Assembly: GCA_016186945.1 (NCBI GenBank) | Contig: JACPKR010000008.1 | Coordinates: forward strand, 67,950-103,871 | DNA: 35,922 bases | From: Deltaproteobacteria bacterium | Lineage (GTDB): Bacteria; Bdellovibrionota_B; Oligoflexia; Oligoflexales; Bog-1112 | Reading direction: 5' to 3' | Shown here: positions 3,857 to 29,010 of the stretch, piece after piece | Numbering within the stretch: the stretch's first letter is position 1 | Layout: each line of letters starts with the position of its first letter | Made by a program: the position numbers and the translations under genes | The notes under the pieces: generated by a model | What the model was told of the DNA's origin: nothing | Database searches by the model: none | Seen by the model: the letters and a program-made list of their open reading frames with translations, nothing else

Positions 3857-3928
3857 TTTTGTTGCAAGGAGGTGGTTTGGAGGAAACTGCGCAGCTGGTT
3901 CCTCCAAGAAATTTCTTTTTGCTACAAA
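3857..3928 (+). repeat. Family A palindromic repeat, copy 1
   Basis: The 48-bp core at 3865-3912 contains AAGGAGGTGG, then the arms GGAGGAA and TTCCTCC around a centre with CTGCGCAG. The outer arms are TTTGTTGCAA on the left and TTGCTACAAA on the right, complementary except at one position. It lies between two plus-strand genes. Confidence 0.85.
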
Positions 3929-3980
3929 CTCACCGTTGGTGTAATTTCAGTCTACAATCCACTGGAAGCATAAGGGGAAC

Positions 3981-5027
3981 ATGATGGACGGTTCGAAGTT
4001 CGATGTTGTAACAATCTGTAACGCCTTGGTGGACATCAGCTATCAGGCTTCTAATGCCGACCTGGCGAAATTTCAACTCACCAAGGGCCATATGCACCTG
4101 GTTGATTCAGCAAAACAAAAAGCCATCCATGAACATTTTTCAGGCAAAAACGCATCCGTAGAGCTAGGCGGATCGTCATTGAATGTCATCCGGGCCTTGG
4201 CTGCGTTGCAGAAGAAAACTGCATTTATCGGGATGGTCTCCTCAGATCACTATGGTTATATCATCAAAAAACGCATGGAAGATTTGAAGATTGGAAACCG
4301 CCTTATCTTCTCAGATGAAGACTCTACGGGTACCTGCGTGATCCTTGTAACGAAAGATGGGGAGCGGACAGGGAATACGCACTTAGGAGCCTCCAGACTT
4401 TACAACAAGGATCACGTCCCCTTCGATGATATTCGTCGCACCCGGGTCTTCCATGTCTCCGGCTACCAATGGGACACAAAGTCGCAGAAGGAAGCCATCA
4501 TGGCCGCCCTTCAGGCTGCCAAGGAAGCAAACTGCAAGATCTCATTTGATGTCGCCGATCCGGCTGTAGTCATGCATCACAAAGGCGATTTTCTAAACAT
4601 CATCAGCGAATTTGCTGACATCGTTTTTGCAAATGAAGAAGAGACCCGACTTCTTTTTGATCGCAAGCCGACCGAAGCCGCGAGTTTAATCGCAGACATA
4701 GGCGCTATAGCTGCCATCAAACTCGGTTCCAAGGGAGCCCTCATCCAGAAAGGTAAGGAGATCTTTACAATTCCCCCTGTGAAAGCGACCGTTGTCGACA
4801 CAACAGCCGCGGGGGATATTTTCGCTGCAGGATTCCTCTTCGGCTATTTGTCGGAAATGTCACTCGACACATGCGGGCAGCTAGCCGCTTATATGGCCAG
4901 TGATGTGATCAGCCGCTTCGGCACGACCGTTTCTCACGAAGTTATCGAAAACGTGCTGCAAACCTACCAGGGATCAGGCTGGCCAGATGGGTTCTTAAAA
5001 CGAATGCGCTCCGAAGAATTGAGGTAG
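3981..5027 (+). CDS. PfkB-family carbohydrate/nucleoside kinase (adenosine-kinase-like)
   Basis: ATP-dependent ribokinase-fold kinase. The N-terminal half has the glycine-rich substrate site ELGGSSLNVIRALAALQ. The C-terminal signature reads DTTAAGDIFAAGFLFG, with the catalytic Asp in AAGD; the usual first Gly of DTxGAGD is Ala here. Length is 348 aa. ATG at 3981 follows AAGGGG. The sequence resembles adenosine kinases and sugar kinases of proteobacteria, and the window also holds purine and deoxynucleoside catabolism genes, so adenosine or another nucleoside is a reasonable substrate. Ribokinase or fructokinase activity cannot be excluded. Its 3' end overlaps the convergent gene at 4964 by 64 bp. 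Confidence 0.85.
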   Translation: MMDGSKFDVVTICNALVDISYQASNADLAKFQLTKGHMHLVDSAKQKAIHEHFSGKNASVELGGSSLNVIRALAALQKKTAFIGMVSSDHYGYIIKKRMEDLKIGNRLIFSDEDSTGTCVILVTKDGERTGNTHLGASRLYNKDHVPFDDIRRTRVFHVSGYQWDTKSQKEAIMAALQAAKEANCKISFDVADPAVVMHHKGDFLNIISEFADIVFANEEETRLLFDRKPTEAASLIADIGAIAAIKLGSKGALIQKGKEIFTIPPVKATVVDTTAAGDIFAAGFLFGYLSEMSLDTCGQLAAYMASDVISRFGTTVSHEVIENVLQTYQGSGWPDGFLKRMRSEELR

Positions 5028-5313
5028 AATTCAGCCCCCCGTACAAGATCCCAGTAAAAACGGGACGCCTTCTTGGGATCCTTAAACTCGGAAAAAGCCT
5101 CCCTCGTCTCTTTTATCTCCGGAATCGTGTAGGAAACATAAACGCGGATCACCCGCGGATGAATTTCGTACCATACCCGATTGGCAGTAAGGGCAAAAGT
5201 GACGCCTGGAAAGAGCCACCCCATTAGAAAAACATAAGTAATTGCGACACGTTGAAAAATGTGATCCAACGGCTTTACTTTCTTCTTAGAAAACGTATTA
5301 TATTGTCCTTTCA
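4964..5313 (-). CDS. small membrane or exported protein of unknown function
   Basis: I do not recognise a family. From the ATG at 5313 the product is 116 aa: a basic N-terminus (MKGQYNTFSKKKVK), one hydrophobic segment (ITYVFLMGWLFPGVTFAL) that could be a signal peptide or membrane anchor, then a soluble part with VWYEIHPRVIRVYVSYTIPE and FYWDLVRGAEFYL. A TTG start at 5344 would add ten residues. The last 64 bp overlap the end of the kinase gene on the other strand, and the start faces lepB divergently. No clear ribosome binding site was seen. Confidence 0.5.
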
Positions 5314-5382
5314 TCGGCACTGGGCATTGTCTGTTCGCAAGCAATTCTGCAAGGCGCTAAAAATCAAGGAGAAAATCAGAGA

Positions 5383-6129
5383 ATGGGCCTAAAAGATACC
5401 AAAGAAAAAAAGTCACAACCCGGCTTTTTTAGCTACGAAAATTTGCGTTCCCTATTTGTCCTCATAGTCATAATCCTCGCAATACGTTGGTCGTGTGCGT
5501 CTCCCTACCATGTGCCCACACCCTCTATGGAACCCTCCATCAAAGTCGGCGATCGTCTCCTCGCCTGGAAACTTGCCTACAATTTAAAGTTCCCTTTCAC
5601 AGATTTTGTCATAGCTGAATGGAGCGACATCAAACGCGGTGACATTATTATTTTCAAATACCCCAAGGATACGAGTCTGGACTATGTGAAAAGGGTCGTC
5701 GGACTTGCAGGAGATAGAATCCGTCTGATCAATGACGTACTTTATGTAAACGGTGTCCCGCAAACGAGAGTTCCGCATAACCATGATCGCAGCGTGCTCA
5801 CAGATATTAAAGCTGAGAAGGAACTAAAAATCCTCTTTGAAGAAACTCTCGATGACGTAAAGCATTGGACGATGAACTGGATTCCCGAACTTCGTCACCC
5901 TGGCCTGGGGAATTGGCCTTCCGATGGAAGCGAATACGTCGTACCTCCCGATTCAGTGTTTGTCATGGGTGACAATCGGGACGATTCCCAGGATTCCCGC
6001 TTCTGGAACGAAGTTCCCAAATCGTATGTTAAGGGAAAAGCTCTCTTTGTGATCTGGAGTATGTTCAGTGAAAAAGGGCATCTGATCCCTAGTTTCCGTT
6101 TCGACCGTTTCTTCAATTGGCTCCACTAG
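5383..6129 (+). CDS. lepB: signal peptidase I
   Basis: Removes signal peptides from exported proteins at the outer face of the inner membrane. One N-terminal membrane helix (about residues 22-38) is followed by the catalytic box PTPSMEPSIKVGD with the nucleophile Ser48. The lysine general base is Lys103 in YVKRVVGLAGD. The C-terminal signature GDNRDDSQDSR and the VKGKALFVIWS segment complete the family pattern. Length is 248 aa. The ATG at 5383 follows AAGGAG. An insert between the lysine box and GDNR (about residues 130-190) is longer than in small Gram-positive enzymes and common in proteobacterial ones. Confidence 0.95.
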   Translation: MGLKDTKEKKSQPGFFSYENLRSLFVLIVIILAIRWSCASPYHVPTPSMEPSIKVGDRLLAWKLAYNLKFPFTDFVIAEWSDIKRGDIIIFKYPKDTSLDYVKRVVGLAGDRIRLINDVLYVNGVPQTRVPHNHDRSVLTDIKAEKELKILFEETLDDVKHWTMNWIPELRHPGLGNWPSDGSEYVVPPDSVFVMGDNRDDSQDSRFWNEVPKSYVKGKALFVIWSMFSEKGHLIPSFRFDRFFNWLH

Positions 6130-6171
6130 GAGCGTTTTTATGAGCTTGGAATAATTGGGTCTTTTTTTGCA

Positions 6172-6579
6172 ATGTTATGTTACCGAGAAAATAGCCGAAG
6201 TATAGAAAAGTGGGACTGGGTGGAATTACTCAGAATTTCCGCTTACCATCCAACGTACGCCGTGAGGCAGAGCGCTATGAACGCAACGGACGGCTATATC
6301 TTCAAACGTGAATACTGGGTCGGAGATTCGCGCGATGGAGTGATTATCAATGGGGACGGCTACCATTTCTTCCGTATGCTACCCGTGGGCCTCATCTTAG
6401 AAGCTTACGAAATGTATGAAAACGAAGAGGGTGACGAAGTTGTAACCCCCCTTCCTGAAATGAACAACGTCCACTGGATCAACGACCTAGGTTTCAAAGA
6501 CCTCGAAGATCTCGACGAGATCGATGAAAGAGAATTTTCCCGAATAAAAAAGCGAAGTGGACAGCAACCCCAAGTCTAA
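6172..6579 (+). CDS. small acidic protein of unknown function
   Basis: 135 aa, no recognised family. The N-terminal part is mixed (KWDWVELLRISAYHPTYAVRQ), the middle has YIFKREYWVGDSRDGVIINGDGYHFF, and the C-terminus is strongly acidic (DLEDLDEIDERE). There is no signal peptide or membrane helix, so it is probably cytoplasmic. It starts 42 bp after lepB on the same strand and could be cotranscribed. The ATG at 6172 lacks a convincing ribosome binding site; another ATG at 6277 would give a shorter product. It converges on the gene at 6582 with a 2-bp gap. Confidence 0.6.
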   Translation: MLCYRENSRSIEKWDWVELLRISAYHPTYAVRQSAMNATDGYIFKREYWVGDSRDGVIINGDGYHFFRMLPVGLILEAYEMYENEEGDEVVTPLPEMNNVHWINDLGFKDLEDLDEIDEREFSRIKKRSGQQPQV

Positions 6580-6581
6580 GT

Positions 6582-7790
6582 TCACTCAGCGAGCAATGCC
6601 TGCAAGCGTGAGATGATCTGCTGATAGAGCGCAAGTCGCTGAGGAACATTTCCTCGGAAGGCACCCACTACCGAGCTAAAGAGGTTTGATTGAAAACCAT
6701 CCCTCACCCTAGCTTCGTCCGCAAGCGACAAGTGGCCGTACTCTCGTCTCATTTGCCCTAACAGCATCTGTAAAGGACCATCCGCTTTGATGAGCAGTTC
6801 CCTGTAGCGCGCCTCCACATTCAGCTGCGTTGCATGCGGTAGTATAGAGAACACGAGACGAGCCTCTGCTTGTGCGCCTCTCAAATGGTCCAGCAAAGCC
6901 TGCGCCTGTGCCAGCAGACGCCCCACTGTCTCAGCCCCTTGAGGGTCAGGCTCCAGATTCCCTAAGCGTCGTACGGTTAGGGCCCAAAGGCGCACCTGAG
7001 CGCGTTCGACAAGGAGGTCAAGGTCCACGACTCCCACAGGTACGCCTTCCAGAAGGATAGCTGCCTGTTCGTAGGCACGAACCACAAGCTCATAACGTTC
7101 CTGCACCGACCAAGCAGGGATCTGCGCTCCTTCAACCCGCAAAAAGTCCGTTACCAAATTTTCCTGATGAATATCTCGAATTCGCATAGCTAGATTGATA
7201 TACTGATGTGCCAGGTTGCTTCCTACCGCCTCGGGGTCGATGGTCATGAGGAGCAATTCCCTTGGAAGCGCTCCCAGCCAGGCAGGGCCGCTCCGTCGAA
7301 TCATTTCCAAGTGCGCTTCACGAACATTCTCCTGCCTCTCGGCCATGCGATCGCCTTGATTTACATACTGTGCTGCAAATTCCGAATTGTTTCTCACTCG
7401 GTCGACTGTGCGTTCGAAAAAGTCAATTACGCCATCCTCATTGGCCCATTGCATAATTGTCGGGTCAGCCGCAAGCCTTGTTAAAAGAAGTCTCTCAAAT
7501 CGCTCATACTCCTCTGGATCCCTCCATGTTTCACGATGGACTACCTTCGCAACACACTCAAGAACTCTGACTGTCATTCCAGTACCGAGAAGCGGTAGAA
7601 GGCGCTGCAAACGACCAAACTCCTCGTCAGAAAACCCTGCCCTAAAGTGCTCAATCAGTTCCGGAACGGAAGGACTGCCCCGACCGGAACGAATGTGCAG
7701 GGGAAAAACTTCAGCTGCGGCGAAAAGCACTCCCGACAAGCTGCTACTGCTAACCAACACCGCAAGAGCGACCTGTTGAAGCTTATCCAT
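6582..7790 (-). CDS. exported alpha-helical protein of unknown function
   Basis: 402 aa with a probable Sec signal peptide (LQQVALAVLVSSSSLSGVLFAAA). The rest is predicted mostly helical and rich in Leu, Ala, Arg and Glu, without a motif that I recognise. It is probably periplasmic. ATG at 7790 is preceded by GGAGGT at a good distance, so the start is reliable. It is divergent from the phosphatase-like lipoprotein at 8055, and a family A repeat occupies the shared upstream region. The leucine/arginine-rich helical hairpins could form repeats or a coiled bundle, but I see no clear period. Confidence 0.75.
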   Translation of the reverse strand: MDKLQQVALAVLVSSSSLSGVLFAAAEVFPLHIRSGRGSPSVPELIEHFRAGFSDEEFGRLQRLLPLLGTGMTVRVLECVAKVVHRETWRDPEEYERFERLLLTRLAADPTIMQWANEDGVIDFFERTVDRVRNNSEFAAQYVNQGDRMAERQENVREAHLEMIRRSGPAWLGALPRELLLMTIDPEAVGSNLAHQYINLAMRIRDIHQENLVTDFLRVEGAQIPAWSVQERYELVVRAYEQAAILLEGVPVGVVDLDLLVERAQVRLWALTVRRLGNLEPDPQGAETVGRLLAQAQALLDHLRGAQAEARLVFSILPHATQLNVEARYRELLIKADGPLQMLLGQMRREYGHLSLADEARVRDGFQSNLFSSVVGAFRGNVPQRLALYQQIISRLQALLAE

Positions 7791-7892
7791 GCCTGACCTC
7801 CACTGGCTGGGATTTCTTCCTTCAGTTAAAACCTACTCAGATTTGGCCGGTTGGTCAATTAATTTTGCTTTAAAAACAGGATAATATAACAA

Positions 7893-7992
7893 GCAAGGAG
7901 GTTGTTTGGAGGTGCGAGTGAAGCGTCGCCTCCCCCGGATTTCTTGGAGGAACCAGCTGCGCAGTTTCCTCCAAACCACCTCCTTGCCCCAA
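7893..7992 (-). repeat. Family A palindromic repeat, copy 2, with long outer arms
   Basis: Core in minus orientation at 7939-7986. On its left is the GC-rich module (GCGTCGCCTCCCCC, 7924-7936 region) and a degenerate outer arm CAAGGAGGTTGTTTGGAGG (7894-7912) that pairs with the core's own CCTCCAAACCACCTCCTTG. It lies in the divergent upstream region of 7790(-) and 8055(+). Confidence 0.85.
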
Positions 7993-8054
7993 AGCGCATG
8001 GTAATATATGTATATGCACCCATAGCTCCAAAAAATTCTGACAAAGAGGTCGAG

Positions 8055-8954
8055 ATGAAACATTGGTTCTGCTTAGGCCTTATCGCCGTAAGTCTTGCTT
8101 GCACAGCACCACAGGCTGTCGAACAGAGTTCTTATTCCATAGATTTAGAGAAGGTTAGTTCCGAGACGCTCCGCACGCACAATGCTCTGCTTCTCCAAGA
8201 CCCGCGTTACACCGACTCCATTCTAAGAGGAGCAAATAAGGTTGGCACTTCCAAGGTCTACAATGCCCAAACGCTTCAGACTCTGGTTGACTCCTTTGAA
8301 AAAAGGGGCGGGACCGTTGTGTTTGTTCCCTTCGATGAGCAGATGAAGATCAAGTTACCAAAGCAGGCTGATTTCTACCCGGTTTGCAAGGGAGGAGTGA
8401 ATCGTTCTCAAGTCACCTACATAGTTCTTCAGGAGCTTACGAAAGGCAACGAGCAATCCCGCATCGAGTTACCCCATGGTGTGGCCATAGGCTATGAAAG
8501 CCCTGACAATAGACCAATGGCCTATGAGAACCCAAGGGTGGTTACTACAAAAACTTATGAGCCAATCGATTTTTTGGGGGGTAATTCCTATTTTGAGACT
8601 GCCATGAAGTCCCCTCGTCCGAAGCGCTTTGGTTATGACCGCACAGATTTTTGCAAGGGGACGATAAGCTCAGCCCCTCTTAACTGCGATACTCCGAAGC
8701 AACGCAAGTATTTTGCGGATCATTATTGGACGGGACAAGGAGATAAACACCGAGTCTTCATCACGTTTGGCTCGGCTGGCGTGATCACCATGGAACGAGC
8801 CAACCCCACAGACACTACCGTTATCATATTTGCATTGGAAGACTATGTCTCGCAATTAGGCAATCATAGCCCGAATGCTTCCCAAGAAGATTTTGTGGGA
8901 GCGTTTCAACAGCTGAGGTCTAAAATTTCTTCTGTGCTGGTCATGCAGCAATAG
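8055..8954 (+). CDS. lipoprotein with a tyrosine-phosphatase-type P-loop
   Basis: 299 aa. The first 16 residues form a lipoprotein signal with lipobox SLAC (Cys16), so the mature protein is membrane-anchored. Residues 111-118 read CKGGVNRS, an exact match to the C-x-x-G-x-x-R-S/T phosphate loop of dual-specificity and tyrosine phosphatases. It is preceded by a hydrophobic strand (FYPV) and followed by a helix (QVTYIVLQEL), as in those enzymes. A general-acid Asp cannot be placed by eye. The C-terminal part (HRVFITFGSAGVITM, TVIIFALEDYV) is strand-rich and unknown to me. ATG at 8055 follows AAGAGGT; longer readings upstream merely translate the repeat. The gene ends inside the arm of another repeat copy. 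Confidence 0.7.
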   Translation: MKHWFCLGLIAVSLACTAPQAVEQSSYSIDLEKVSSETLRTHNALLLQDPRYTDSILRGANKVGTSKVYNAQTLQTLVDSFEKRGGTVVFVPFDEQMKIKLPKQADFYPVCKGGVNRSQVTYIVLQELTKGNEQSRIELPHGVAIGYESPDNRPMAYENPRVVTTKTYEPIDFLGGNSYFETAMKSPRPKRFGYDRTDFCKGTISSAPLNCDTPKQRKYFADHYWTGQGDKHRVFITFGSAGVITMERANPTDTTVIIFALEDYVSQLGNHSPNASQEDFVGAFQQLRSKISSVLVMQQ

Positions 8955-9009
8955 GGATTTCTTGGAGGAACCAGCTGCGCAGTTTCCTCCAAACCACCTC
9001 CTTGCTGCA
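8944..9009 (-). repeat. Family A palindromic repeat, copy 3
   Basis: Core in minus orientation at 8957-9004. The outer arms TGCAGCAA (8944-8951) and TTGCTGCA (9002-9009) are perfectly complementary. The left arm lies within the last codons (Met-Gln-Gln-stop) of the preceding gene. It sits between convergent genes. Confidence 0.85.
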
Positions 9010-9012
9010 ACG

Positions 9013-9231
9013 TCATTCCGCGTCATCATCTGCACCCACAAGTTCTTTCTTGCGGCTTTGCAGAATGCTGCGGTACCAGGAAAGTGTCTGGTCAATCAAC
9101 CATTGGTAAGCAGCAAATTGTGCAGGGGGGACTAATTCTTCACAGAAATCGAGAAGGTCGTTTTCTTCTCCTTTTGGGTTCTCCCGCATCCACTCTTTGA
9201 CCTTTTTCTTGAAGTCATTTATATCAAACAT
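9013..9231 (-). CDS. small conserved-looking cytoplasmic protein of unknown function
   Basis: 72 aa from the ATG at 9231 (MFDINDFKKKVKEWMRENP). It is highly charged and helical, ends in an acidic tail (GADDDAE), and has no signal or membrane segment. The segment DFCEELVPPAQFAAYQWLIDQTLSWYR looks like a folded helical core rather than a random frame. A longer reading to 9288 exists, but it would overlap the upstream region of the divergent gene. I do not recognise the family. Confidence 0.6.
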   Translation of the reverse strand: MFDINDFKKKVKEWMRENPKGEENDLLDFCEELVPPAQFAAYQWLIDQTLSWYRSILQSRKKELVGADDDAE

Positions 9232-9278
9232 TCGACTCTCTCGACTTTTGTGGGCCGATGTATGCCTTTCGTTTCGGA

Positions 9279-9305
9279 TTGCCTGCACAATCCTTTAGAT
9301 AATAT
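9279..9305 (+). promoter_or_regulatory. possible sigma-70-type promoter
   Basis: TTGCCT (9279-9284) and TAATAT (9300-9305) with a 15-bp spacer, or GATAAT at 9298-9303. It lies 25 bp before the preferred ATG at 9331. Spacing is suboptimal, so this is only a candidate. Confidence 0.25.
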
Positions 9306-9330
9306 GTTGCAGAATGAAAAGGACTTTCTA

Positions 9331-10032: not shown

Positions 10033-10081
10033 TGACGGCCCCTCCTTAGGATTCCCAACAAAATTCCCAGAAAGGACCACC

Positions 10082-10750: not shown

Positions 10751-10759
10751 CCTGAACAC

Positions 10760-10847
10760 CCAAGCCCCTTTTCAAAAACTTCAATATCTAAAGTTTTTTG
10801 GGGGGATGTGTGGAGGGGAACTTTTTTTCAAAAAAGGTCCTCTCCAC
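10760..10847. repeat. Family B palindromic repeat, copy 2 (inverted, interrupted)
   Basis: Reverse-oriented copy: AAGCCCCTTTTCAAAAACTT, the ATATCTAAAG linker and the GTGGAGGGGAAC hairpin arm, ending at CTCTCCAC. Its continuation (TTTCCCAAATTAATTATCTT, 10947-10966 region) lies beyond the CCGCGG palindrome, which therefore sits inside the copy. Confidence 0.8.
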
Positions 10848-10930
10848 TGTCATCCCGCGGCTCGACCGCGGGATCCAACGGCAGCCTCCCTCGAAAAAGT
10901 TGGATCCCGCGGTCAAGCCGCGGGATGACA
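10848..10930. repeat. CCGCGG-type double palindrome inserted in a family B copy
   Basis: The 32-bp arms 10848-10879 and 10899-10930 are inverted copies with one mismatch. Each arm is itself palindromic (ATCCCGCGG and CCGCGGGAT). Read through, it encodes the VIPRLDRGIQ and LDPAVKPRDD peptides well known from dispersed palindromic repeats of many proteobacteria, including Rickettsia-like endosymbionts. Confidence 0.85.
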
Positions 10931-10975
10931 GACTCGTAGAATTTGTTTCCCAAATTAATTATCTTGAACGCTGTA

Positions 10976-13555: not shown

Positions 13556-13613
13556 AGCTTTCCTTTCTTCTACGATGTATTTGAGACTTACGGGGATCAT
13601 ATAAGGAAGTCCC

Positions 13614-13721
13614 ACTTGTGGCAAGGACGTGGTTTGCCCCGCTTGTGGCAAGGAGGTGGTTTGGAGGAAACTGCGCAGCTGGTTCCTCCAAGACAAGACC
13701 CCCTCTCCCTTCCGCCACAGG
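13614..13721 (+). repeat. Family A palindromic repeat, copy 4, with duplicated left arm
   Basis: Core at 13649-13692. The outer arms TGTGGC (13644-13649) and GCCACA (13714-13719) are complementary. The left part occurs twice in a row (CTTGTGGCAAGGACGTGG from 13615, then CTTGTGGCAAGGAGGTGG from 13642), a partial tandem duplication. Confidence 0.8.
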
Positions 13722-14453: not shown

Positions 14454-14464
14454 GGCCGCTGCTC

Positions 14465-15235: not shown

Positions 15236-15287
15236 CAGAAAACTCTCCCGTCTCTTCTAATTCAAACTGTTTCTCTATATTATATAA

Positions 15288-15387
15288 CTATAGTATTTGA
15301 AAAAAAGAATTTGTGGAGAGGACCTTTTTTGAAAAAAAGTTCCCCTCCACGCCTCCCCCCAAAAAACTTTAGATATTGAAGTTTTTG
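15288..15387. repeat. Family B palindromic repeat, copy 3
   Basis: The hairpin 15313-15350 is identical to that of copy 1, with the same ATTTGTGGAGAGG entry and the same CTTTAGATATTGAAG exit. It fills the divergent region between 15235(-) and 15399(+) and ends 11 bp before the next ATG, so it would form much of that gene's leader. Confidence 0.85.
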
Positions 15388-15398
15388 ACGAGAGCCGT

Positions 15399-17315
15399 AT
15401 GAAAAATCTTTTTAGATTTTCAATCTCCACCAAACTTCTTGTCGTAATAACCCTCATTCTTCTTGCCGTTACTATTCCCTTATCGTTTAAAGCTGCCGAC
15501 ATGTTCAAGACTGAGTCGAGTCGTCGTGAGGAGAATGCAAACATCACGTTTGCCAATGCGCGTGCGAGTGAACTTTCCGTAATCTTCAAAAACGTCCACG
15601 AAAAAGCGTCCATCATCGGTTCCATGATGCTCAGCCCTCAGGTGAACGCTTCAAAACAACTTCGCGATCTTGTTCGCTCCCTTTTCCTCAACGATCGCGA
15701 CATGCTTGCCCTGAATTTCTATCAGACCGGGGAAGAGGTCAAAAAAATCCACTCCTTCGTCAATCACACTAAATTGGAACAGATGGGGCAGTCGGAAGAT
15801 TACCTTACGCATCTGGAAAAGACCCTGAGTTTTCCCTTTCAACGGGTAATCAATGGCGAGGTGACGATAGAGAACAGGAGTTTGCCTGAGGGGCTGGCGA
15901 TCTTGACGTTTGGAATCCCCCTCGTGCAAGACGATAAAGGACGGGTAAGTTTCTTCGTCTTGGCCGATGTAAGGCAAAGCGGTTTTGAAAAGGAACTCCA
16001 CTTGGGAAGCGAGCGCAAGTCCTTCATGGTTAACAAAGCGGGGATCATCCTGGCTCATCCGGACGAAAAACTCGTGCTCAATCGTAGTGACTTCTCCCAT
16101 GTCGACATCGTCAAGCAGGCGTTGGAATCGAGGGTCTTGCGGGGGCAGTTCAAGTATCGTTCCGCCGAAGGGGCATTCTTTTACGGGGCCTTTACCAGAA
16201 CAGACTACGGGCCCGTGGTGATTACAGAAATTCCCGAGACAGTTGTGCTTGAGCCAGCTTTCATGATCCGTCGGGAAATCTATTACCTTACAGGGATTAT
16301 CTTGTCGATCTCACTTGTCCTGATCTTTCTTTTTTCCCTAACGCTGACTCGTCCCATCATTAAACTTTCCGAGATCGCCAGAGAAATCGGTGAAGGTAAA
16401 TTCGATATTCCCATCAAGAAACTCGTGCGATCCTCGGACGAGGTGGGGGACCTGGCTAGCTCTGTAAACTGGATGAGCGATAAAATTGCAAGCCTGCTCG
16501 TCCAGGAAAAGGCAAAAGCGGAAATCGAGAAAGAACTTGAAATCGCTAATGCCGTACAGATGACCTTTCTCTCCGATCCTTCCAACCTTGCCCCATTCAA
16601 CATCGCTTCGTTCTATGCGTCAGCTTCCCAATGCGGCGGAGACTGGTGGGGACACTATCGCGTTGCTCCCGAGGTCGAACTTCTGCTCATCGGTGACGCC
16701 ACAGGACACGGGGTCGCGGCAGCTCTAGTGACAGCAATGGCCTATTCCACGAGTGACATCTTTGCGCAGAAACTGATTCAAGGCCAGGATCGAGGATCTT
16801 ACAGACCATCGGTTATTTTGAAGGAACTCAACAGACTTCTCTACGACTGCCTGCATGGGCAATTCTGCATGTCGTTTTTTGCTGCCTTTATAGACGCAAA
16901 AAACAACACAGTCACCTATGCTAATGCCGGCCATTGTTTTCCCTACCTGATTCCCAAAGATCCTAAAGACGAGCGCGCCATAAAATCAGGAATGCTCCTC
17001 CCCGTAAGATCACTTCGATACCAACAGCCGACGGATGCTTCCATTCTCGGGATCAGAGATGATGTCAGCTTTGTTGACGAAACCGTGCAGCTTAAGAAAG
17101 GAGATCGTATTGTCTTCTATACGGACGGAGTCACGGAAGCACGTTCCGATGAAGGCGTTATGTGGGGAACAAAGAACTTCCTCAAATCCGTGACCAAACA
17201 TTACGACAACACCATTAAAGTCATGTGTGAAAATGTGATCAAAGATTTACGCACATACTATACCAAGGAAACCTTCGAGGATGACGCAACGCTTATTGTG
17301 ACCGAATACACTTAG
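15399..17315 (+). CDS. membrane sensor with Cache-like, HAMP and SpoIIE phosphatase domains
   Basis: 638 aa. Order: membrane helix (about 12-30), an extracytoplasmic Cache-like sensor (about 35-290, with FMVNKAGIILAHPDE typical of the fold), a second membrane helix (YYLTGIILSISLVLIFLFSL), HAMP (TRPIIKLSEIAREIGEGKFD), a short coiled coil (KAKAEIEKELEIANAVQ), then a PP2C/SpoIIE serine phosphatase. The phosphatase carries the metal-binding motifs GDWWGHY, GDATGHGVAAALVTAMA and FYTDGVTEA. Such proteins dephosphorylate anti-sigma-factor antagonists in response to outside signals. No antagonist or anti-sigma gene is next to it. A receiver-domain gene converges with it at a 1-bp gap. The leader consists of a family B repeat. 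Confidence 0.9.
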   Translation: MKNLFRFSISTKLLVVITLILLAVTIPLSFKAADMFKTESSRREENANITFANARASELSVIFKNVHEKASIIGSMMLSPQVNASKQLRDLVRSLFLNDRDMLALNFYQTGEEVKKIHSFVNHTKLEQMGQSEDYLTHLEKTLSFPFQRVINGEVTIENRSLPEGLAILTFGIPLVQDDKGRVSFFVLADVRQSGFEKELHLGSERKSFMVNKAGIILAHPDEKLVLNRSDFSHVDIVKQALESRVLRGQFKYRSAEGAFFYGAFTRTDYGPVVITEIPETVVLEPAFMIRREIYYLTGIILSISLVLIFLFSLTLTRPIIKLSEIAREIGEGKFDIPIKKLVRSSDEVGDLASSVNWMSDKIASLLVQEKAKAEIEKELEIANAVQMTFLSDPSNLAPFNIASFYASASQCGGDWWGHYRVAPEVELLLIGDATGHGVAAALVTAMAYSTSDIFAQKLIQGQDRGSYRPSVILKELNRLLYDCLHGQFCMSFFAAFIDAKNNTVTYANAGHCFPYLIPKDPKDERAIKSGMLLPVRSLRYQQPTDASILGIRDDVSFVDETVQLKKGDRIVFYTDGVTEARSDEGVMWGTKNFLKSVTKHYDNTIKVMCENVIKDLRTYYTKETFEDDATLIVTEYT

Positions 17316-17316
17316 T

Positions 17317-17691: not shown

Positions 17692-17714
17692 TGATTCTCC
17701 AAAAACACCAAGCC

Positions 17715-17828
17715 CTGGGCAAGGAGGTGGTTTGGAGGAAACTGCGCAGCTGGTTCCTCCAAGAAATCCCTTGGGGGAGGCGACGCTTCACTCGCCCCCC
17801 CAAGCCCCCCTCTCCCTTTTTGCCACAA
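17715..17828 (+). repeat. Family A palindromic repeat, copy 5
   Basis: Core at 17720-17767, then the GC-rich module GGGGGAGGCGACGC with its CTCGCCCCCC partner (17773-17800) and CCCCCCTCTCCCT. Outer arms GGGCAA and TTGCCA are only partly complementary. It lies between divergent genes. Confidence 0.85.
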
Positions 17829-17851
17829 GATTATTATAGTACCATGAAAGA

Positions 17852-18877: not shown

Positions 18878-18892
18878 GAAACGGAGGAAACA

Positions 18893-20942: not shown

Positions 20943-22272
20943 TGGTCACCCCTTCTTCGATAAGGCGAGGGGCTTCAACGTTTCTGTCCCCGATGTTGTA
21001 GGCTCTTGTCAACAACTCGCGAATCTTCCCTTCGTGCTCGTTGAAATCAGTGCGTAAAGTGCAAAGGATCTCCCCTTTTTTCACGGCGTCGCCAACTTTC
21101 AAATGATGGGAGAGTGAGGTGTTGTAGGCAATTTCATCGGTTTGTTTCTGTCTACCTGCATGGGCTAACACAAGAGCCTCGCCTAAAAGGATGGTTTGCA
21201 TGCTTTCGATATAGCCAGACCGTTCAGCTCGGATTTCTATTTGAAATTTGGTCTGAGGAAAAGGGTCCAAGTCTCCCTCGAGCACTGAGCTGTCTCCTCC
21301 TTGAGCGTCGATAAGTTGGCAGAGACGTTCGAAGGGTCGGCCGGAGGCCAGGCTGTCTTCCACTTTTTCAAACGCCTGGTGTTTATCCCCACAGGCACCG
21401 CTTAGCAGAAGCAATTCTGCGGCGAAGCTCACAACAAGTTCCCGAGTATCGGCTATGTGGGCGCATTCGTCTTTCGTCTTTGTCAGTACTTCTACTGCTT
21501 CCACAACTTCGCACCAGTTCCCGGAAAGCAAACCGAGGGGCTGGTTCATATTCGTGATCATCGCTTTCGTCTTTGTCCCTGCGCCTGTGGCGGTTGTAAC
21601 AAGGGCCTTGGCCAATTCCCGTGCCTGGGGCAAGGTTTGCATGAAGGCACCAGTCCCCCACTTGACGTCGAGCAGGAGGACATCTAACGATTCTGCAAGT
21701 TTTTTCGCGAGAATACTGCTTGTAATAAGTGGTAAGGAAGGCACGTTGGCAGTAACGTCACGCAAGGCATACAAACGTCTATCGGCGGGAGCAATGTCGT
21801 CAGTCTGTCCTCCGAAGCAGAAACCGAAGCGCGCGACCAGTCGTTGAATTTCATCCATGCTTAATGCTGTACGCAGGCCAGGGATGCTGGCAAGTTTGTC
21901 GAGAGTTCCTCCTGAGAAGCCCAGTCCTCGTCCCGAAATCGTTGGCATCGCTAAGCCGAGGGATGCAACGAGCGGACCTAAGCTGATGGTCACCTTGTCG
22001 CCAACCCCACCTGTGGAGTGTTTGTCGACGACTGGTTTGGCGAGGCCGTCCCATTTGAGCGCTTTCCCGGAATCACGCATGGCCAAGCTTAGGTCGACAA
22101 TGTTGTCCCTCTGTAACCCTTTGTGAAAGACATGGGAAAGGAAAGCGACAACTTGCCCGTCCCCAGTTTCAGCAAGATGACCGATGAAATACTGGATATC
22201 TTCCCGCTTGAGTTTTCTTCCCTCTCGGGCTGCTTCTAGAAAGCTCGTGATGGAAAAAGGTGTTTGGGTCAT
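20929..22272 (-). CDS. deoA: thymidine phosphorylase
   Basis: Cleaves thymidine and deoxyuridine to base and deoxyribose 1-phosphate. Signatures: DKHSTGGVGDKVTISLGP and SGRGLGFSGGTLDKLASI, with the catalytic and phosphate-binding residues in place, KWGTGAFMQT, and a C-terminal biotinyl-like domain (SGYIESMQTILLGEALV). 447 aa, near the family norm. Pyrimidine nucleoside phosphorylases of Gram-positives are close relatives; deoA is favoured by context. It is the first gene of deoA-punA and divergent from deoC, with a family A repeat between them where a joint promoter region is expected. Confidence 0.92.
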   Translation of the reverse strand: MTQTPFSITSFLEAAREGRKLKREDIQYFIGHLAETGDGQVVAFLSHVFHKGLQRDNIVDLSLAMRDSGKALKWDGLAKPVVDKHSTGGVGDKVTISLGPLVASLGLAMPTISGRGLGFSGGTLDKLASIPGLRTALSMDEIQRLVARFGFCFGGQTDDIAPADRRLYALRDVTANVPSLPLITSSILAKKLAESLDVLLLDVKWGTGAFMQTLPQARELAKALVTTATGAGTKTKAMITNMNQPLGLLSGNWCEVVEAVEVLTKTKDECAHIADTRELVVSFAAELLLLSGACGDKHQAFEKVEDSLASGRPFERLCQLIDAQGGDSSVLEGDLDPFPQTKFQIEIRAERSGYIESMQTILLGEALVLAHAGRQKQTDEIAYNTSLSHHLKVGDAVKKGEILCTLRTDFNEHEGKIRELLTRAYNIGDRNVEAPRLIEEGVTIESL

Positions 22273-22302
22273 GCTTTTGCTTTCTTCATAGGGCGTAAGC
22301 TA

Positions 22303-22419
22303 CTTGGGGCAAGGAGGTGGTTTGGAGGAAACTGCGCAGCTGGTTCCTCCAAGAATTACCTTGAGGGAAACCATCTGCGAAGTTTTCCCTCAAACTCCCT
22401 TCCTTGCTATTGCCCCAAG
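22303..22419 (+). repeat. Family A palindromic repeat, copy 6, double unit
   Basis: A consensus core (from 22310) is followed by a diverged inverted copy of itself (CTTGAGGGAAACC at 22370-22382 and GTTTTCCCTCAA at 22382-22393), in which both stem arms changed together. The outer arms CTTGGGGCAA (22303-22312) and TTGCCCCAAG (22410-22419) are perfectly complementary. It lies between divergent deoA and deoC. Confidence 0.85.
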
Positions 22420-22489
22420 CGGATTACGTAGTGGATAGCACAAAGTTTGGACCTTGCAAAATTCAAAAAAGTCACCGATAACTCGGCGC

Positions 22490-23380
22490 ATGGAAACGTT
22501 GCTAAAAATGACAGTCGACCAAGTCGGCATTGAAGAACGTGCGGCACGCATCACCACACGTTCCATCAAGACATCAGCCAAACGCGAGGGGATCAAGTTG
22601 GCGATCAGCATGATCGACTTGACGACCCTGGAAGGCAAAGATTCACGCGGTAAGGTAGAAGCACTCTGTCGCAAGGCAATCAGGCCCGATCTAAACAATC
22701 CCGAGATTCCCTCGGTGGCAGCAGTTTGTGTGTATCCCAACATGGTAGCCTTGGCGAGACAGGCACTTTCGGGAACTTCGGTGAAAGTCGCCTCGGTTGC
22801 GACCGGTTTTCCTGCCGGACTTATACCCCTTTCCTTGAAAGTCGAGGAGACCAAACGCGCTGTCGCATCAGGTGCAGATGAGATCGACATGGTGATTGAC
22901 CGGGGAGCTTTCCTCTCCGGCGAGTTCCAGAAGGTGACGGACGAGATCGGGAGCATCAAGGAAGCATGTGGGAGCACCCACTTGAAAGTCATACTGGAAA
23001 CAGGCGAGTTGGAAACCTACGACAATATCCGCAAAGCAAGTTTGCTTGCCATGAACGCAGGAGCAGACTTCATCAAGACCTCGACTGGAAAAGTCAGTAT
23101 CAACTCGACGCTTCCGATCACCCTGGTCATGTTGGAAGCTATACGAGATTATTTTCGCCTTACAGGAAAACGTATCGGCATGAAATCAGCAGGTGGGATA
23201 CGAACCAGCAAGCTTGCCTTGCACTATCTCGCCCTGCTGAAGGAAAGCTTGGGAGACGACTGGCTTGATCCTTCCCTGTTTCGCTTCGGAGCCAGTGCGT
23301 TGACAAACGATCTGCTGATGCAGTTTGCCACACAAATCAGCGGCCGCTACCAGTCTGCTGACTATTTCACAAACGATTAG
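22490..23380 (+). CDS. deoC: deoxyribose-phosphate aldolase, long form
   Basis: Splits 2-deoxyribose 5-phosphate into glyceraldehyde 3-phosphate and acetaldehyde. The product resembles the longer eukaryotic/actinobacterial DERA rather than E. coli DeoC: ARITTRSIKTSAKREG, ISMIDLTTLEGKDSRGK, PSVAAVCVYPNMV, KVASVATGFPAG and ADEIDMVIDRGAFLSG. The Schiff-base lysine lies in DFIKTSTGKVS, and the second lysine in GMKSAGGIRT. 296 aa from ATG 22490; a TTG at 22454 would add 12 residues, and neither start has a clear ribosome binding site. Eight bp after it begins an ALDH gene, consistent with immediate oxidation of the acetaldehyde. Confidence 0.93.
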   Translation: METLLKMTVDQVGIEERAARITTRSIKTSAKREGIKLAISMIDLTTLEGKDSRGKVEALCRKAIRPDLNNPEIPSVAAVCVYPNMVALARQALSGTSVKVASVATGFPAGLIPLSLKVEETKRAVASGADEIDMVIDRGAFLSGEFQKVTDEIGSIKEACGSTHLKVILETGELETYDNIRKASLLAMNAGADFIKTSTGKVSINSTLPITLVMLEAIRDYFRLTGKRIGMKSAGGIRTSKLALHYLALLKESLGDDWLDPSLFRFGASALTNDLLMQFATQISGRYQSADYFTND

Positions 23381-23388
23381 GGTGTTCT

Positions 23389-24819
23389 ATGAAATGGGAT
23401 TACGCTCCAGCCCCAGAGTCTACAGCACTTATTAAACTTAAGCCGAAGTACGATCTCTTCATCGACGGTAAATTTGTAAAACCGCACTCTCGCAAATATT
23501 TCGATACCATCAACCCTGCGACTGAAGAAAAACTGAGTGAAGTCGCTCTGGCCGACCAGACGGATATCGACCTTGCCGTAAAGGCTGCGCGGAAAGCCTA
23601 TGAGAAATCGTGGTCGAAACTCAAACCCATCGAACGTGCGAAATACATCTACCGCATCGCTCGCCAGCTTCAGGAAAAAGCAAGGGAATTTGCGATCGTC
23701 GAAAGTATGGACGGGGGCAAACCGATCCGAGAATCGCGCGACATCGACGTTCCTCTAGCACTTGCTCATTTCTTCTACCACGCCGGCTGGGCAGACAAAC
23801 TTGAATATGCCCTGCCTCATAGAAAACCCAGGGCGCTAGGTGTAGCCGCACAAATCATTCCGTGGAATTTCCCGCTACTGATGGCAGCCTGGAAAATCGC
23901 CCCTGCGCTTGCTTGCGGAAACACGGTTGTTCTCAAACCTGCAGAAACAACTCCCCTCACGGCAATGCTTCTGGCTCAGCTCATCCAGGAAGCAGACTTG
24001 CCCCCGGGAGTCGTCAACATCGTCACAGGCTTCGGAGACACGGGCGCCCAACTCGTGCAACACCCTGACGTAGACAAGGTCGCCTTCACCGGCTCGACAG
24101 AAGTAGGTAAGCTCATCGCCCAAGCAGTGGCAGGAACCAACAAACGCCTGACCCTTGAACTGGGAGGAAAAGCGGCGAATATAATTTTCGAAGACGCCCC
24201 CCTCGACCAAGCTGTGGAAGGGATTATCAACGGTATCTACTTTAATCAGGGCCACGTTTGCTGTGCCGGTTCACGTCTGCTCATCCAAGAAGGTGTAGTA
24301 GAGACTGTTATACAGAAATTAAAAGACCGCATGGCCACCCTGCGGGTGGGTGACCCGCTCGACAAAAATACCGACGTGGGTGCCATCAATTCCATGGAGC
24401 AAGTCAAGAAGATCAAAAGCCTGGTTAAGTCGGGTATCGACGAAGGTTGTGAGTTCTACCAGCAGCCTTGCAAAGTTCCAGACAAGGGGTTTTGGTTCGC
24501 CCCCAGCTTCTTCACTAAGGTGGCCCAGTCGCACCGCATCGCCAACGAAGAGATTTTCGGCCCCGTTCTTGCGATCCTCACGTTTCGCACCCCTGAGGAA
24601 GCTGCGGAAAAAGCAAACAACACCGCCTTCGGCCTGTCTGCAGGCGTATGGACCGACAAAGGCTCAAAGATTTTCAAGCTCTCCAAGGCAATGCGCGCGG
24701 GTGTCGTGTGGGCAAACACCTACAATAAGTTCGACCCCACAAGTCCGTTCGGAGGTTACAAGGAGTCGGGCTACGGGCGAGAGGGAGGACTTCATGGCCT
24801 GAAAGGGTACCTGCGATGA
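23389..24819 (+). CDS. aldehyde dehydrogenase, catalytic half of a split ALDH16
   Basis: 476 aa NAD(P)-dependent ALDH. Cofactor motif AQIIPWNFPLLMAAWKIAPALACGNT, VVLKPAE, the FTGSTEVGK loop, Glu257 in LELGGKAA, and catalytic Cys291 in NQGHVCCAGSR; then EIFGPVLAILTF and the PFGGYKESGYGREGG end. The likely substrate is acetaldehyde from DeoC, which lies 8 bp upstream. The next gene overlaps by 4 bp and encodes a truncated second ALDH domain. Together (476 + 291 aa) they match the two-domain plan of bacterial ALDH16, which is usually one chain. The match to ALDH16 is by layout and resemblance, not by alignment. Confidence 0.9.
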   Translation: MKWDYAPAPESTALIKLKPKYDLFIDGKFVKPHSRKYFDTINPATEEKLSEVALADQTDIDLAVKAARKAYEKSWSKLKPIERAKYIYRIARQLQEKAREFAIVESMDGGKPIRESRDIDVPLALAHFFYHAGWADKLEYALPHRKPRALGVAAQIIPWNFPLLMAAWKIAPALACGNTVVLKPAETTPLTAMLLAQLIQEADLPPGVVNIVTGFGDTGAQLVQHPDVDKVAFTGSTEVGKLIAQAVAGTNKRLTLELGGKAANIIFEDAPLDQAVEGIINGIYFNQGHVCCAGSRLLIQEGVVETVIQKLKDRMATLRVGDPLDKNTDVGAINSMEQVKKIKSLVKSGIDEGCEFYQQPCKVPDKGFWFAPSFFTKVAQSHRIANEEIFGPVLAILTFRTPEEAAEKANNTAFGLSAGVWTDKGSKIFKLSKAMRAGVVWANTYNKFDPTSPFGGYKESGYGREGGLHGLKGYLR

Positions 24820-25691
24820 AACGAACAAACGTTCTCAAAACTTACAAACTTTTTATCAATGGCCAATTTCCCCGCAGTGAGTCGGGTCACTACTTCCAGG
24901 TGAAAGATCCCGAGACGAAAAAGATACTCGCTAATCTTGCCCGGGCCTCACGAAAAGATTTACGAGATGCGGTGAAAGCCGCGCGTGGAGCCTTCCCTTC
25001 TTGGTCAGGGAAAACAGCATACAATCGCGGGCAAATTCTTTACCGCATTGCAGAGATGCTGGAAGCCAGACGGACCGAATTCGCGGAGGCCATTATCGCA
25101 AGTACAGGGGCGAAACGTTCACAAGCCGATGACGAGGTAAGTGTCAGCATCGACCGAATGATATGGTACGCAGGATGGGCGGATAAATTTTCACAAGTGT
25201 TCAGCTCAGTAAACCCTGTGGCCCTGCCCTACTTCAACTTCACTATGCCCGAAGCTATGGGTGTCGTGGGAATTGTCGCAGCAGATGAACTGTCGCTACT
25301 TCCCCTTGTTTCGCAACTTGCTCCCGCAATCGTATCGGGAAACACAAGTCTTGTACTTGCCTCGGACAGCTTTCCCCTACCAGCTATTCTCTTCGCTGAA
25401 GTCTTGGCAACATCTGACGTCCCCCCAGGGGTGATCAACATCTTGACCGGACCTAGGAAGGAACTTCTCCCCCACCTTGCTAAGCACATGGATGTCAACG
25501 CTGTTCACTATGTGGGCCAGAACTCGGAAACACGGAAGCTTCTACAGACCGAAGGGGCTGCGAACGTCAAACGCATCATCGCCAGTGAAAAACCAAACGG
25601 CGACGGATGGTTTTCAGAGAAAGCTCAATCTCCCTACCTCATAGAAGCGTTCGTGGAAATGAAGACTACCTGGCACCCCGTAGGGACTTAG
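24816..25691 (+). CDS. truncated ALDH-like domain without catalytic residues
   Basis: 291 aa. It aligns by eye with the first half of an ALDH: YKLFINGQFPRSESG, RGAFPSWSGKTAYNRGQILYRIAEMLE, then a degenerate cofactor region where PWNFPLL is replaced by ADELSLL, and APAIVSGNTSLVLASD. It ends before the catalytic Glu and Cys regions, so it should be non-catalytic. The ATG at 24816 shares ATGA with the stop of the upstream ALDH, so the two proteins are made in coupled fashion. In ALDH16 enzymes a domain of this size is fused behind the active domain and shapes the dimer; a partner role is the best inference. It is not a decayed full-length gene: the frame is clean. Confidence 0.8.
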   Translation: MKRTNVLKTYKLFINGQFPRSESGHYFQVKDPETKKILANLARASRKDLRDAVKAARGAFPSWSGKTAYNRGQILYRIAEMLEARRTEFAEAIIASTGAKRSQADDEVSVSIDRMIWYAGWADKFSQVFSSVNPVALPYFNFTMPEAMGVVGIVAADELSLLPLVSQLAPAIVSGNTSLVLASDSFPLPAILFAEVLATSDVPPGVINILTGPRKELLPHLAKHMDVNAVHYVGQNSETRKLLQTEGAANVKRIIASEKPNGDGWFSEKAQSPYLIEAFVEMKTTWHPVGT

Positions 25692-25713
25692 ACCTTCGTT
25701 CGTCTTGACGGAC

Positions 25714-25841
25714 TAAGCCACTTGGGGCAAGGAGGTGGTTTGGAGGAAACTGCGCAGCTGGTTCCTCCAAGAAATCCGGGGGAGGCGACGCTTCCCTCGC
25801 CCCCCCAAACCCCCCTCTCCCTATTTGCCCCAAGTGGCTTA
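25714..25841 (+). repeat. Family A palindromic repeat, copy 7, with 17-bp perfect terminal inverted repeats
   Basis: Ends TAAGCCACTTGGGGCAA (25714-25730) and its exact complement at 25825-25841. Core at 25728-25775, GC-rich module at 25777-25802. The block 25722-25849 is an inverted copy of 27589-27716 with a single difference over 128 bp. Confidence 0.9.
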
Positions 25842-25863
25842 CGCATTACCTACGTCCCCCTGC

Positions 25864-27507
25864 TTAGGTTGACGATACGAGGGATTCCCGAATGCTAATC
25901 ACCGATTCTTTCTCTTCCTTGATCTTGCGGTAAAGAGCAGCAAGCTCAGAGACAAGGTTCATGCCCTCTGCTAACCTGTACGCATTGGCATCAAGACTGG
26001 CCAAAGTCTTAAAATGACTTGCGGTGAAAACTGCAGAAAAGAGTGACATAGCAACACCCGTCCATTTTTTTACACGACCTGCATTGACCCAACCTATTTG
26101 CTCATTAGGCTTAAGTTTGACTGTCTGAGCGGTTCTAATATGTACCTGCAAAATCTCTTGGCGACTTGTCCAAGCTTTGAAATCCTGATACTCCGCTTTT
26201 CTCCTAACCCAGTCGTCTTTGAAGAAATTGAGGCGTTCCCTTATCGTTCCAATGGCATCATAGTATGTCTTCTCGTTTGTACCGAGCCACTTTACCTGAG
26301 CGGTCGCTGCTAGGCTTCTAGTAGCTCGATAGTTCTCCCAGATACCTCTCTGAATCTCTTCTAACCGGTTATCAAGGGTCAACACCGTATTTTGATAATA
26401 GCTGATATCAGCAATACGATCCGGATTAATAATAAAATCAGCTCCCGGAAGCAGATGTCGCCTTAAAAAAGTTTTAACTTGCGGCGTTTTAATGTCTGCA
26501 TCCAAGCTTTGCAATTTGTTGTTAAAATCTATCACTGCCTTATTGATATAATCCTGCACTGCCTCCCATTCTCGGCTCAATTTTCGCATATTATCCTGAA
26601 GTCTGCTTGATTCCTGAACCCATTTGGCATATTCGTCAAAGTCAGCTTGCTTTTCTCGCTTGGCTTCCCATTCCTTCTCCTGGTAAAACCCTCGGTAGGT
26701 CATCAGGATACCTCCGGCAAAGCCGACTGCTCCCATCCCTAACAACACTCCTGCATAAACGCGCTCAAGAGTTATCGAGAGATCGCTTTTCTTTTTTTCT
26801 TCTTTCTCTTCATTTTCGCTTTCGCTGGTGCTTGTAAGTTTTTCGGACGTTTCTTTTTCGAGTTCGGTAGAAATATTGCTGAGCATGACTGCCGAGCAAA
26901 GCTCAGGAGACACCTCATCTAGTTGACGTTGCATCATTTTGCCGGTTTCTGTCTCCTTGGCGTCAGGATTTTCCTCTAGGTAGCGACGCATCACATCTCG
27001 GGAGGTCTGGCAATATTCTCGAATACGCGCTTCGTGTTCATAGATCTGAAGCAACCGTGCGTGCTTTTCAGGGTCGTTGGGAGCTTGATAAAAGCTGTGA
27101 GGCCCTGACCATTCTCCACATGTTTGTGCTTTGGCAGTACACCCTCTGATAAAGATATTAACCACGCCACTTTGTTTGAGAGGAAAATCATCGACTCCCT
27201 CGATAAAACTGTAGGGATTTTCCTGAGTGGGATCACATTGGGGAGCCAATGTATCAGTGCAAACTGCCATCTGGTATAGCTGAACGGCATCCCCTCCTTG
27301 CGCAGAAATTGCTAATCCATTGAGTCCCTCCACCAGCGAAACAGGTGTGAGACTCACTTTTTTCACAGCTAATGTCTCGGCGGAAGCCTGTGCTTGCAAA
27401 AAAGCTGCTTTTTCAATACTTGGCATGTCGTCAACTCGTGCCTTCCTCACCTGACAGGAGGCTGAAAGCAATGCCAAGACAGCAATCAAACGAGAGGCCT
27501 TGTACAT
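25864..27507 (-). CDS. large lipoprotein with an internal membrane segment, unknown function
   Basis: 547 aa, no family recognised. The signal ends LSASC (Cys18), a lipobox. Residues up to about 150 are mixed, with several cysteines (MAVCTDTLAPQCDP, IRGCTAKAQTCGEW) that could form disulfides. Then come an acidic/lysine-rich low-complexity stretch (TSESENEEKEEKKKSD), one hydrophobic helix (VYAGVLLGMGAVGFAGGILM) and a long charged coiled-coil-like region. Near the C-terminus is another weakly hydrophobic segment (KKWTGVAMSLFSAVFTA). It stands alone between two nearly identical inverted repeat copies and is more AT-rich than its neighbours, so it may be a mobile or exchangeable cargo gene. Start at ATG 27507. 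Confidence 0.75.
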   Translation of the reverse strand: MYKASRLIAVLALLSASCQVRKARVDDMPSIEKAAFLQAQASAETLAVKKVSLTPVSLVEGLNGLAISAQGGDAVQLYQMAVCTDTLAPQCDPTQENPYSFIEGVDDFPLKQSGVVNIFIRGCTAKAQTCGEWSGPHSFYQAPNDPEKHARLLQIYEHEARIREYCQTSRDVMRRYLEENPDAKETETGKMMQRQLDEVSPELCSAVMLSNISTELEKETSEKLTSTSESENEEKEEKKKSDLSITLERVYAGVLLGMGAVGFAGGILMTYRGFYQEKEWEAKREKQADFDEYAKWVQESSRLQDNMRKLSREWEAVQDYINKAVIDFNNKLQSLDADIKTPQVKTFLRRHLLPGADFIINPDRIADISYYQNTVLTLDNRLEEIQRGIWENYRATRSLAATAQVKWLGTNEKTYYDAIGTIRERLNFFKDDWVRRKAEYQDFKAWTSRQEILQVHIRTAQTVKLKPNEQIGWVNAGRVKKWTGVAMSLFSAVFTASHFKTLASLDANAYRLAEGMNLVSELAALYRKIKEEKESVISIRESLVSST

Positions 27508-27588
27508 AAACGTTCCCTGGAGAGTTTGGATGATCTTACAATCGTATATCGTAAATCAATCCACCTCCACACATTTCCAGCTGCTGGC

Positions 27589-27716
27589 GTAATGCGTAAG
27601 CCACTTGGGGCAAATAGGGAGAGGGGGGTTTGGGGGGGCGAGTGAAGCGTCGCCTCCCCCGGATTTCTTGGAGGAACCAGCTGCGCAGTTTCCTCCAAAC
27701 CACCTCCTTGCCCCAA
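27589..27716 (-). repeat. Family A palindromic repeat, copy 8 (partner of copy 7)
   Basis: Core in minus orientation at 27663-27710. Left end TAAGCCACTTGGGGCAA at 27597-27613; the right end keeps TTGCCCCA, then diverges. It is inverted relative to copy 7 and differs from it at one base in 128. Confidence 0.9.
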
Positions 27717-28987: not shown

Positions 28988-29010
28988 GATAAGCGAATTT
29001 GGCGGAAGGT

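Follow-up and report, generated by a model that had tools for sequence, protein, structure and literature searches.

Palindromic core copies in the window

The stretch of DNA analysed here (the window, 35,922 nucleotides) comes from a deltaproteobacterium of the order Oligoflexales (assembly GCA_016186945.1) and corresponds to positions 67950-103871 of contig 66 in a 2.66-Mb draft genome, here G000 (76 contigs, 91% complete). It carries repeated copies of a palindromic element of 43-48 bases, the core, which consists of GCAAGGAGGTGG followed by the hairpin TTTGGAGGAA-ACTGCGCAGCTGG-TTCCTCCAAG. An initial annotation had listed eight copies; all eight are in place, scoring 66-69 bits with a covariance model, together with a ninth, diverged copy in inverted orientation. 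The 14-nt head CAAGGAGGTGGTTT gave 10 window matches with at most 2 mismatches, compared with 0.36 expected, and partial head pieces were seen at 13622 and 7894. A 128-bp full form that had also been described is real, its two window copies (25722-25849 and 27589-27716) being 99% complementary. The copies are as follows (MITE, miniature inverted-repeat transposable element; ORF, open reading frame).

3864..3910, plus strand: core, singlet (covariance model, 68.6 bits)
7941..7987, minus strand: core in a doublet spanning about 7894-7992 (covariance model)
8959..9005, minus strand: core, singlet (covariance model)
13622..13635, plus strand: incomplete head, 27 bp upstream of and in tandem with the core at 13648..13694
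13648..13694, plus strand: core, overlapping the extended 5' end of an opposite-strand M1-peptidase ORF (covariance model)
17719..17765, plus strand: core in a doublet ending at about 17829 (covariance model)
22309..22355, plus strand: core, left half of an inverted doublet (covariance model)
22359..22407, minus strand: diverged core (GCAAGGAAGGGAGTTTGAGGGAAAACTTCGCAGATGGTTTCCCTCAAGG), forming the doublet's right half beside the core at 22309 (58.2 bits; missing from the initial list)
25727..25773, plus strand: core inside a MITE form ending at 25849; right inverted end at 25825-25849, left end decayed
27665..27711, minus strand: core inside a MITE form starting at 27589; inverted end at 27589-27613, other end lost

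The copies had been called intergenic without exception. This holds for nearly all of them; the core at 13648-13694 and that at 7941-7987, which overlaps the extended start of the ORF at 7902-8954, run into crudely called ORFs whose starts are both probably over-extended.

Genome-wide and phylogenetic distribution

The core is not a product of local duplication, since a 21-nt piece of it, CAAGGAGGTGGTTTGGAGGAA, matches the whole genome 438 times with at most one mismatch and 458 times with at most two, on both strands and about once per 6 kb. The same pattern read backwards had no match in G000, which holds about 440 cores in 2.66 Mb. Among 95 other genomes, two had a single 2-mismatch match each to this piece, and the same-genus genome had none. 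When part of the window was used as a DNA query, diverged cores were detected in G005 and G007, which represent two further genera within the same family as G000. The apical motif GGAAACTGCGCAGCTGGTTCC (at most one mismatch) was counted 382 times in G000, 82 times in G007 and 59 times in G005, and was absent from 40 other genomes of the order. In a covariance-model survey of 56 related genomes, all comparison genomes being drafts, the family was present in three with at least 105-111 copies each, these being lower bounds because 110 candidates per genome were scored; the sole same-genus genome, 75% complete, had no match.

No Rfam family scored above its curated threshold for the core. None of the papers examined described a matching family, and a search with the core sequence returned only unrelated papers containing the 12-mer. 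Viral, phage and plasmid collections gave no core match, and such carriers were set aside. The statement in the initial annotation that the family was not recognised is in agreement with these searches.

The core is a conserved hairpin

Core anatomy was read from 146 copies in 760 kb of G000 stretches, window included, and about 29% of the genome was read directly. The core is conserved at 97-100% per site from a sharp left boundary, where a G precedes CAAGG in 98% of copies and the next base outward is conserved in 79%; it runs through TTCCTCCAA and then fades over GAAATCC, and the flanks are unrelated between copies. The head GCAAGGAGG and the apical part AACTGCGCAGCTGGTT, which carries two bulges, are mostly kept in all three genera, and the stem varies: it is TTTGGAGGAA/TTCCTCCAA in G000 and TCTGGGGAA/TTCCCCAGT, TATGGGGAA/TTCCCCATA or CAGGGGAA/TTCCCCTG in G007, with further variants in G005.

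Covariation was examined in 24 sequences from the three genera, with shuffles and slid registers as controls. Changes on both sides of a pair occupied 41 cells, compared with 12.4 +/- 2.8 in shuffled data, and the covariation score was 0.331 against 0.113 for shuffles and at most 0.114 for slid registers; the apical stem showed one compensatory change, from G-C to T-A. These compensatory changes between genera indicate that the hairpin structure itself is kept. The earlier description of the core as palindromic is supported. Folded as single-stranded DNA, both strands were more stable than shuffles, the head strand more strongly (z -3.25).

By crude ORF calls, on which all gene-context counts rest, 118 of the 146 cores lie outside ORF interiors, compared with 19% of random positions. 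Their orientation relative to neighbouring genes was evenly distributed over four classes (32/29/28/27), consistent with the earlier view that the copies occupy all gene settings and are not simply terminators. Such mostly intergenic placement without an orientation rule fits a selfish repeat that is tolerated and does not fit a terminator or leader.

Singlets, doublets and an enclosed MITE form

The core takes three forms in G000: a singlet in unrelated DNA, one half of an inverted doublet, or the interior of a 143-169 bp MITE. Singlets make up 70 of the 146 copies, 62 of them without a recognisable terminal inverted repeat (TIR). The other copies are doublets: in 69 the core is paired with an inverted hairpin of another type (GGGGGAGGCGACGCTTCACTCGCCCCCCC and its variants), and in 7 the partner is an inverted core that has diverged. 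A tandem piece of the core's own 5' part lies directly upstream in 22 copies. Many of the doublets lie between 25-bp inverted ends, GTAATGCGTAAGCCACTTGGGGCAA, which begin with GTAA and complete the 143-169 bp elements; this TIR occurs 221 times in G000. Forms with a 77-bp internal deletion, one-ended copies, and nested insertions between GGAGGAAAC and GTAATGCG were also seen.

Among 29 full-length elements, 11 had exact 8-bp and 4 exact 9-bp target duplications; 19 had exact or one-mismatch duplications of 8-9 bp, and 15 matched at 7 or more of 8 sites, compared with 0.5 expected. The full-length form thus combines the TIRs, target duplication and lack of coding capacity of a MITE, and its inverted ends and duplications of 8-9 bp indicate that a DDE-type transposase moved it, in agreement with the proposal that the repeat codes for nothing and could move only in trans. 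A target duplication, which the initial annotation had suggested looking for, was found for this form, and singlets showed none above background. Singlets stop repeatedly at the same left boundary between G and CAAGG, and many of their flanks carry no trace of an arm.

Cores read in G007 were mostly arranged as inverted pairs, the heads facing inward and the two cores 143-433 bp apart, surrounding non-coding DNA built of nested palindromes; those of G005 were mostly singlets, with a few inverted doublets. Neither genome had the G000-type MITE in the stretches read. In the nomenclature of repetitive extragenic palindromes (REPs), pairs with heads inward and outward correspond to TT and HH dimers, respectively (PMC3733652).

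Several individual elements merit description. Loci L123-L133 of G007 hold non-coding elements of about 140-430 bp with nested imperfect palindromes, bounded by two inverted cores and sharing pieces such as GGGTCACAAATCGCAG and TGCGATTTTGAGAGG. At about 1049-1134 of L101, 35-bp units that combine an inverted end with the head (GTAAGCCGGTTGGGGCAAGGAAGTGGTTTGGAGGC) are repeated in tandem directly upstream of a core, and on the minus strand of L093 (14225-15142) an element of the family gives a methyltransferase-like ORF its predicted C-terminal tail (GGGDASLAPPNPPLPICPKWLTHYLRSF...). An autonomous element between distant inverted ends was rejected, the C23 pair proving to be two separate MITE copies.

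Two other palindromic repeats occur in the window. An inverted pair of CTGTCATCCCGCGGCTCGACCGCGGGATCCAAC with 33-nt arms 19 nt apart lies at 10847-10931, and we take it to resemble the CGTC-type REPs common in alphaproteobacteria; another copy lies inside a broken element of the core family (L048, near 8278). A second palindromic family, with the core GTGGAGAGGACCTTTTTTGAAAAAAAGTTCCCCTCCAC, occurs at 1953-2072, 10759-10847, 15286-15405 and 29010-29093; two of the copies are 90% identical across 120 nt, and other copies show 96-98% complementarity across 76-89 nt. Near 17291 of L048, an inverted end of the first family is joined to sequence related to the GTGGAGAGGACCTTTTTTGAAAAAAAGTTCCCCTCCAC family.

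Unequal decay of core and arms

When regions were compared within the doublet-bearing copies, about 22% of sites differed from consensus in the outer arms, 0.9% in the core and about 7-12% in the rest of the interior, the last figure including subtype differences. Core mismatches per 43 nt were 0.53 in copies without a TIR and 0.28 in TIR-intact copies. Core identity was 98.5% in singlets and 98.3% in doublets (permutation p = 0.63), loose BLAST searches recovered few decayed copies, and a weak CTTGTGG trace was present to the left of singlets. The data are compatible both with a singlet core that moves independently and with one that some factor preserves where it lies; the CTTGTGG trace favours preservation in place for some copies.

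Candidate mobilising enzymes

Y1 transposases (PF01797) gave four matches in G000, two being IS605 TnpA genes beside TnpB-like ORFs and the other two broken or cut by contig ends. G007 had one IS605 gene and G005 twelve Y1 genes, several of which resembled REP-associated tyrosine transposases (RAYTs) of about 250 aa. The Y1/RAYT link suggested by the initial annotation was not found, the Y1 genes of G000 all being of IS605 type or remnants, with no clear case of flanking cores. At L153-L158 of G005 at least six copies of the roughly 250-aa RAYT-like gene are 77-86% alike in DNA; their shared blocks hardly pass the gene limits, with no consistent flanking core. An IS200/IS605-derived (PATE-like) origin was also rejected: loci L031 and L032 lack the core, and the hairpins in the end regions of L145 and L033 are different ones.

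The alternative suggestion of a DDE transposase agrees with the larger element and its inverted ends and target duplications; no intact transposase was found. IS66-family elements have ends beginning GTAA and 8-bp duplications, and the enclosed form, with GTAA ends and mostly 8-bp duplications, is what would be expected of an IS66-derived MITE. It differs in a minority of 9-bp duplications, and the IS66 copies of G005 end in GTAAGCGCTTAGG, only partly like the MITE TIR. The G000 assembly contained no IS66 catalytic domain, and IS66 was rejected as an intact partner there; a C-terminal fragment scored 26 bits, below the cut-off of 30, near an IS4/5-type element at a contig end. IS4/5 transposases were likewise rejected, the pieces at contig ends lacking the MITE inverted ends, and an IS256 search gave one short match. 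At the end of contig C10 (L202, 4548-5066) the IS66 C-terminus fragment stands beside an IS4/5-type transposase, and further fragments there resemble the C-terminus of a group II intron maturase.

A probable REP-like family partly carried by a MITE

We consider it probable (about 0.6) that these sequences constitute a new family of non-autonomous hairpin elements similar to REPs and to REP doublets forming hairpins (REPINs), part of which spread as a MITE of DDE type, perhaps IS66-like. The core comprises a fixed 5' head GCAAGGAGG, a stem free in sequence with its pairing kept, and an invariant apical part AACTGCGCAGCTGGTT. Through head and apical part it may be recognised as a single-stranded hairpin by a trans-acting protein, most likely an HUH/Y1 enzyme. 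The enclosed 143-169 bp form was moved by a DDE-type transposase, possibly an IS66-like enzyme now reduced in G000 to the C-terminal fragment. We tentatively suggest, with considerable doubt, that the unit which is maintained or mobile is the singlet hairpin instead of the inverted doublet, that a non-RAYT factor reads its head and apical loop, and that this unit is uniform within each of the three genera and is also carried by the DDE-type MITE.

Several observations weigh against a mobile REP/REPIN-like family. The hairpin has no GTAG or CGTC tetranucleotide beside it, its head being GCAAGGAGG in all three genera. No RAYT was found in searches of G000 (91% complete) and G007, and among eight genomes of the family that were searched no Y1 gene was consistently flanked by cores, on which ground a RAYT-mobilised REP was rejected. 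There was no clear strand bias with GC skew and, in the stretches read, no empty site for any singlet. Conservation is no lower in singlet than in doublet cores, which could mean constraint on the core rather than mobility.

Such constraint would be expected if the core were a host functional site, such as a nucleoid, supercoiling, mRNA-end or protein-binding hairpin, that MITE copies scattered and that purifying selection or gene conversion kept while ends and flanks decayed. The strongly diverged arms around a nearly invariant core, the weak trace of a decayed arm beside singlets, the scarcity of decayed cores and the structure kept between genera are all consistent with this explanation. 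However, the core is missing from the same-genus genome as well as from 52 further relatives, its roughly 440 sites follow no orientation or gene-position rule, and many singlet flanks show no arm trace; on balance we regard a host site as rather unlikely. If instead only the MITE were mobile, singlets and doublets would be remnants of deletion, nested insertion and recombination between copies, too young for their cores to differ. The restriction of target duplications to the enclosed form, the nested and one-ended copies and the 77-bp deletion forms suit this account, which is nevertheless improbable: singlets end repeatedly at one left boundary, arms are far more diverged than cores within the same copies, and cores occur in G005 and G007 without the G000-type MITE in the stretches read. 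That the cores are transcription terminators or cis-acting RNA elements is highly improbable, and this explanation was rejected. The hairpin is stable and mostly intergenic, and one G007 pair lies between two convergent genes, but numbers are equal in all gene orientations, divergent regions included, no consistent T run follows the hairpin, and no Rfam family matched above cut-off.

Comparison with known repeat families

As in REPs (PMC3733652, PMC8266576), the core is a short palindrome (20-50 nt) in high copy and mostly intergenic, with a conserved unpaired 5' tag, a bulged stem, singlets as well as HH and TT dimers, and a patchy spread among species. Unlike the GTAG and CGTC REPs described there, its tag GCAAGGAGG lies several bases from the stem foot, its apical part is invariant over three genera, and part of the copies lie inside a MITE with target duplications. 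A RAYT gene flanked by the repeat is a defining trait of GTAG REPs, whereas the RAYT-like genes of G005 are not consistently flanked. With no GTAG or CGTC tag and no RAYT found in G000, the core is classified as REP-like and not as a true REP; the enclosed form is classed with the MITEs.

Pseudomonas REPINs (PMC3116915) are likewise non-autonomous, high-copy inverted doublets of a short palindrome, and inverted doublets account for 69 plus 7 of the 146 copies here, with inverted pairs in G007. In contrast, no RAYT partner was found for the core, and REPIN singlets are more diverged than doublets and regarded as defunct (PMC3116915), whereas singlets here, about half of all copies, are not. The enclosed form resembles MITEs such as Correia/NEMIS and Coxiella QMITE2 (PMC10969869) in being short and non-coding with inverted ends and target duplications, and differs in that its inner hairpin is far better conserved than its ends and occurs alone at many unrelated sites and in other genera. 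QMITE2 contains a REP and also occurs in truncated, REP-like copies, a precedent for a MITE/REP composite (PMC10969869).

REPs and REPINs have been explained by a domesticated Y1 transposase reading the GTAG tag, and in REPIN theory singlets are dead remnants. The hairpin family described here is present in high copy, bears a different tag and has undecayed singlets, and no RAYT was found in two of its three genomes. It also shows REP-like hairpins packed inside a cut-and-paste MITE. CGTC REP families also occur without a dedicated transposase (PMC3733652). If our reading is confirmed, the persistence of such orphan REP families without a dedicated enzyme would become testable.

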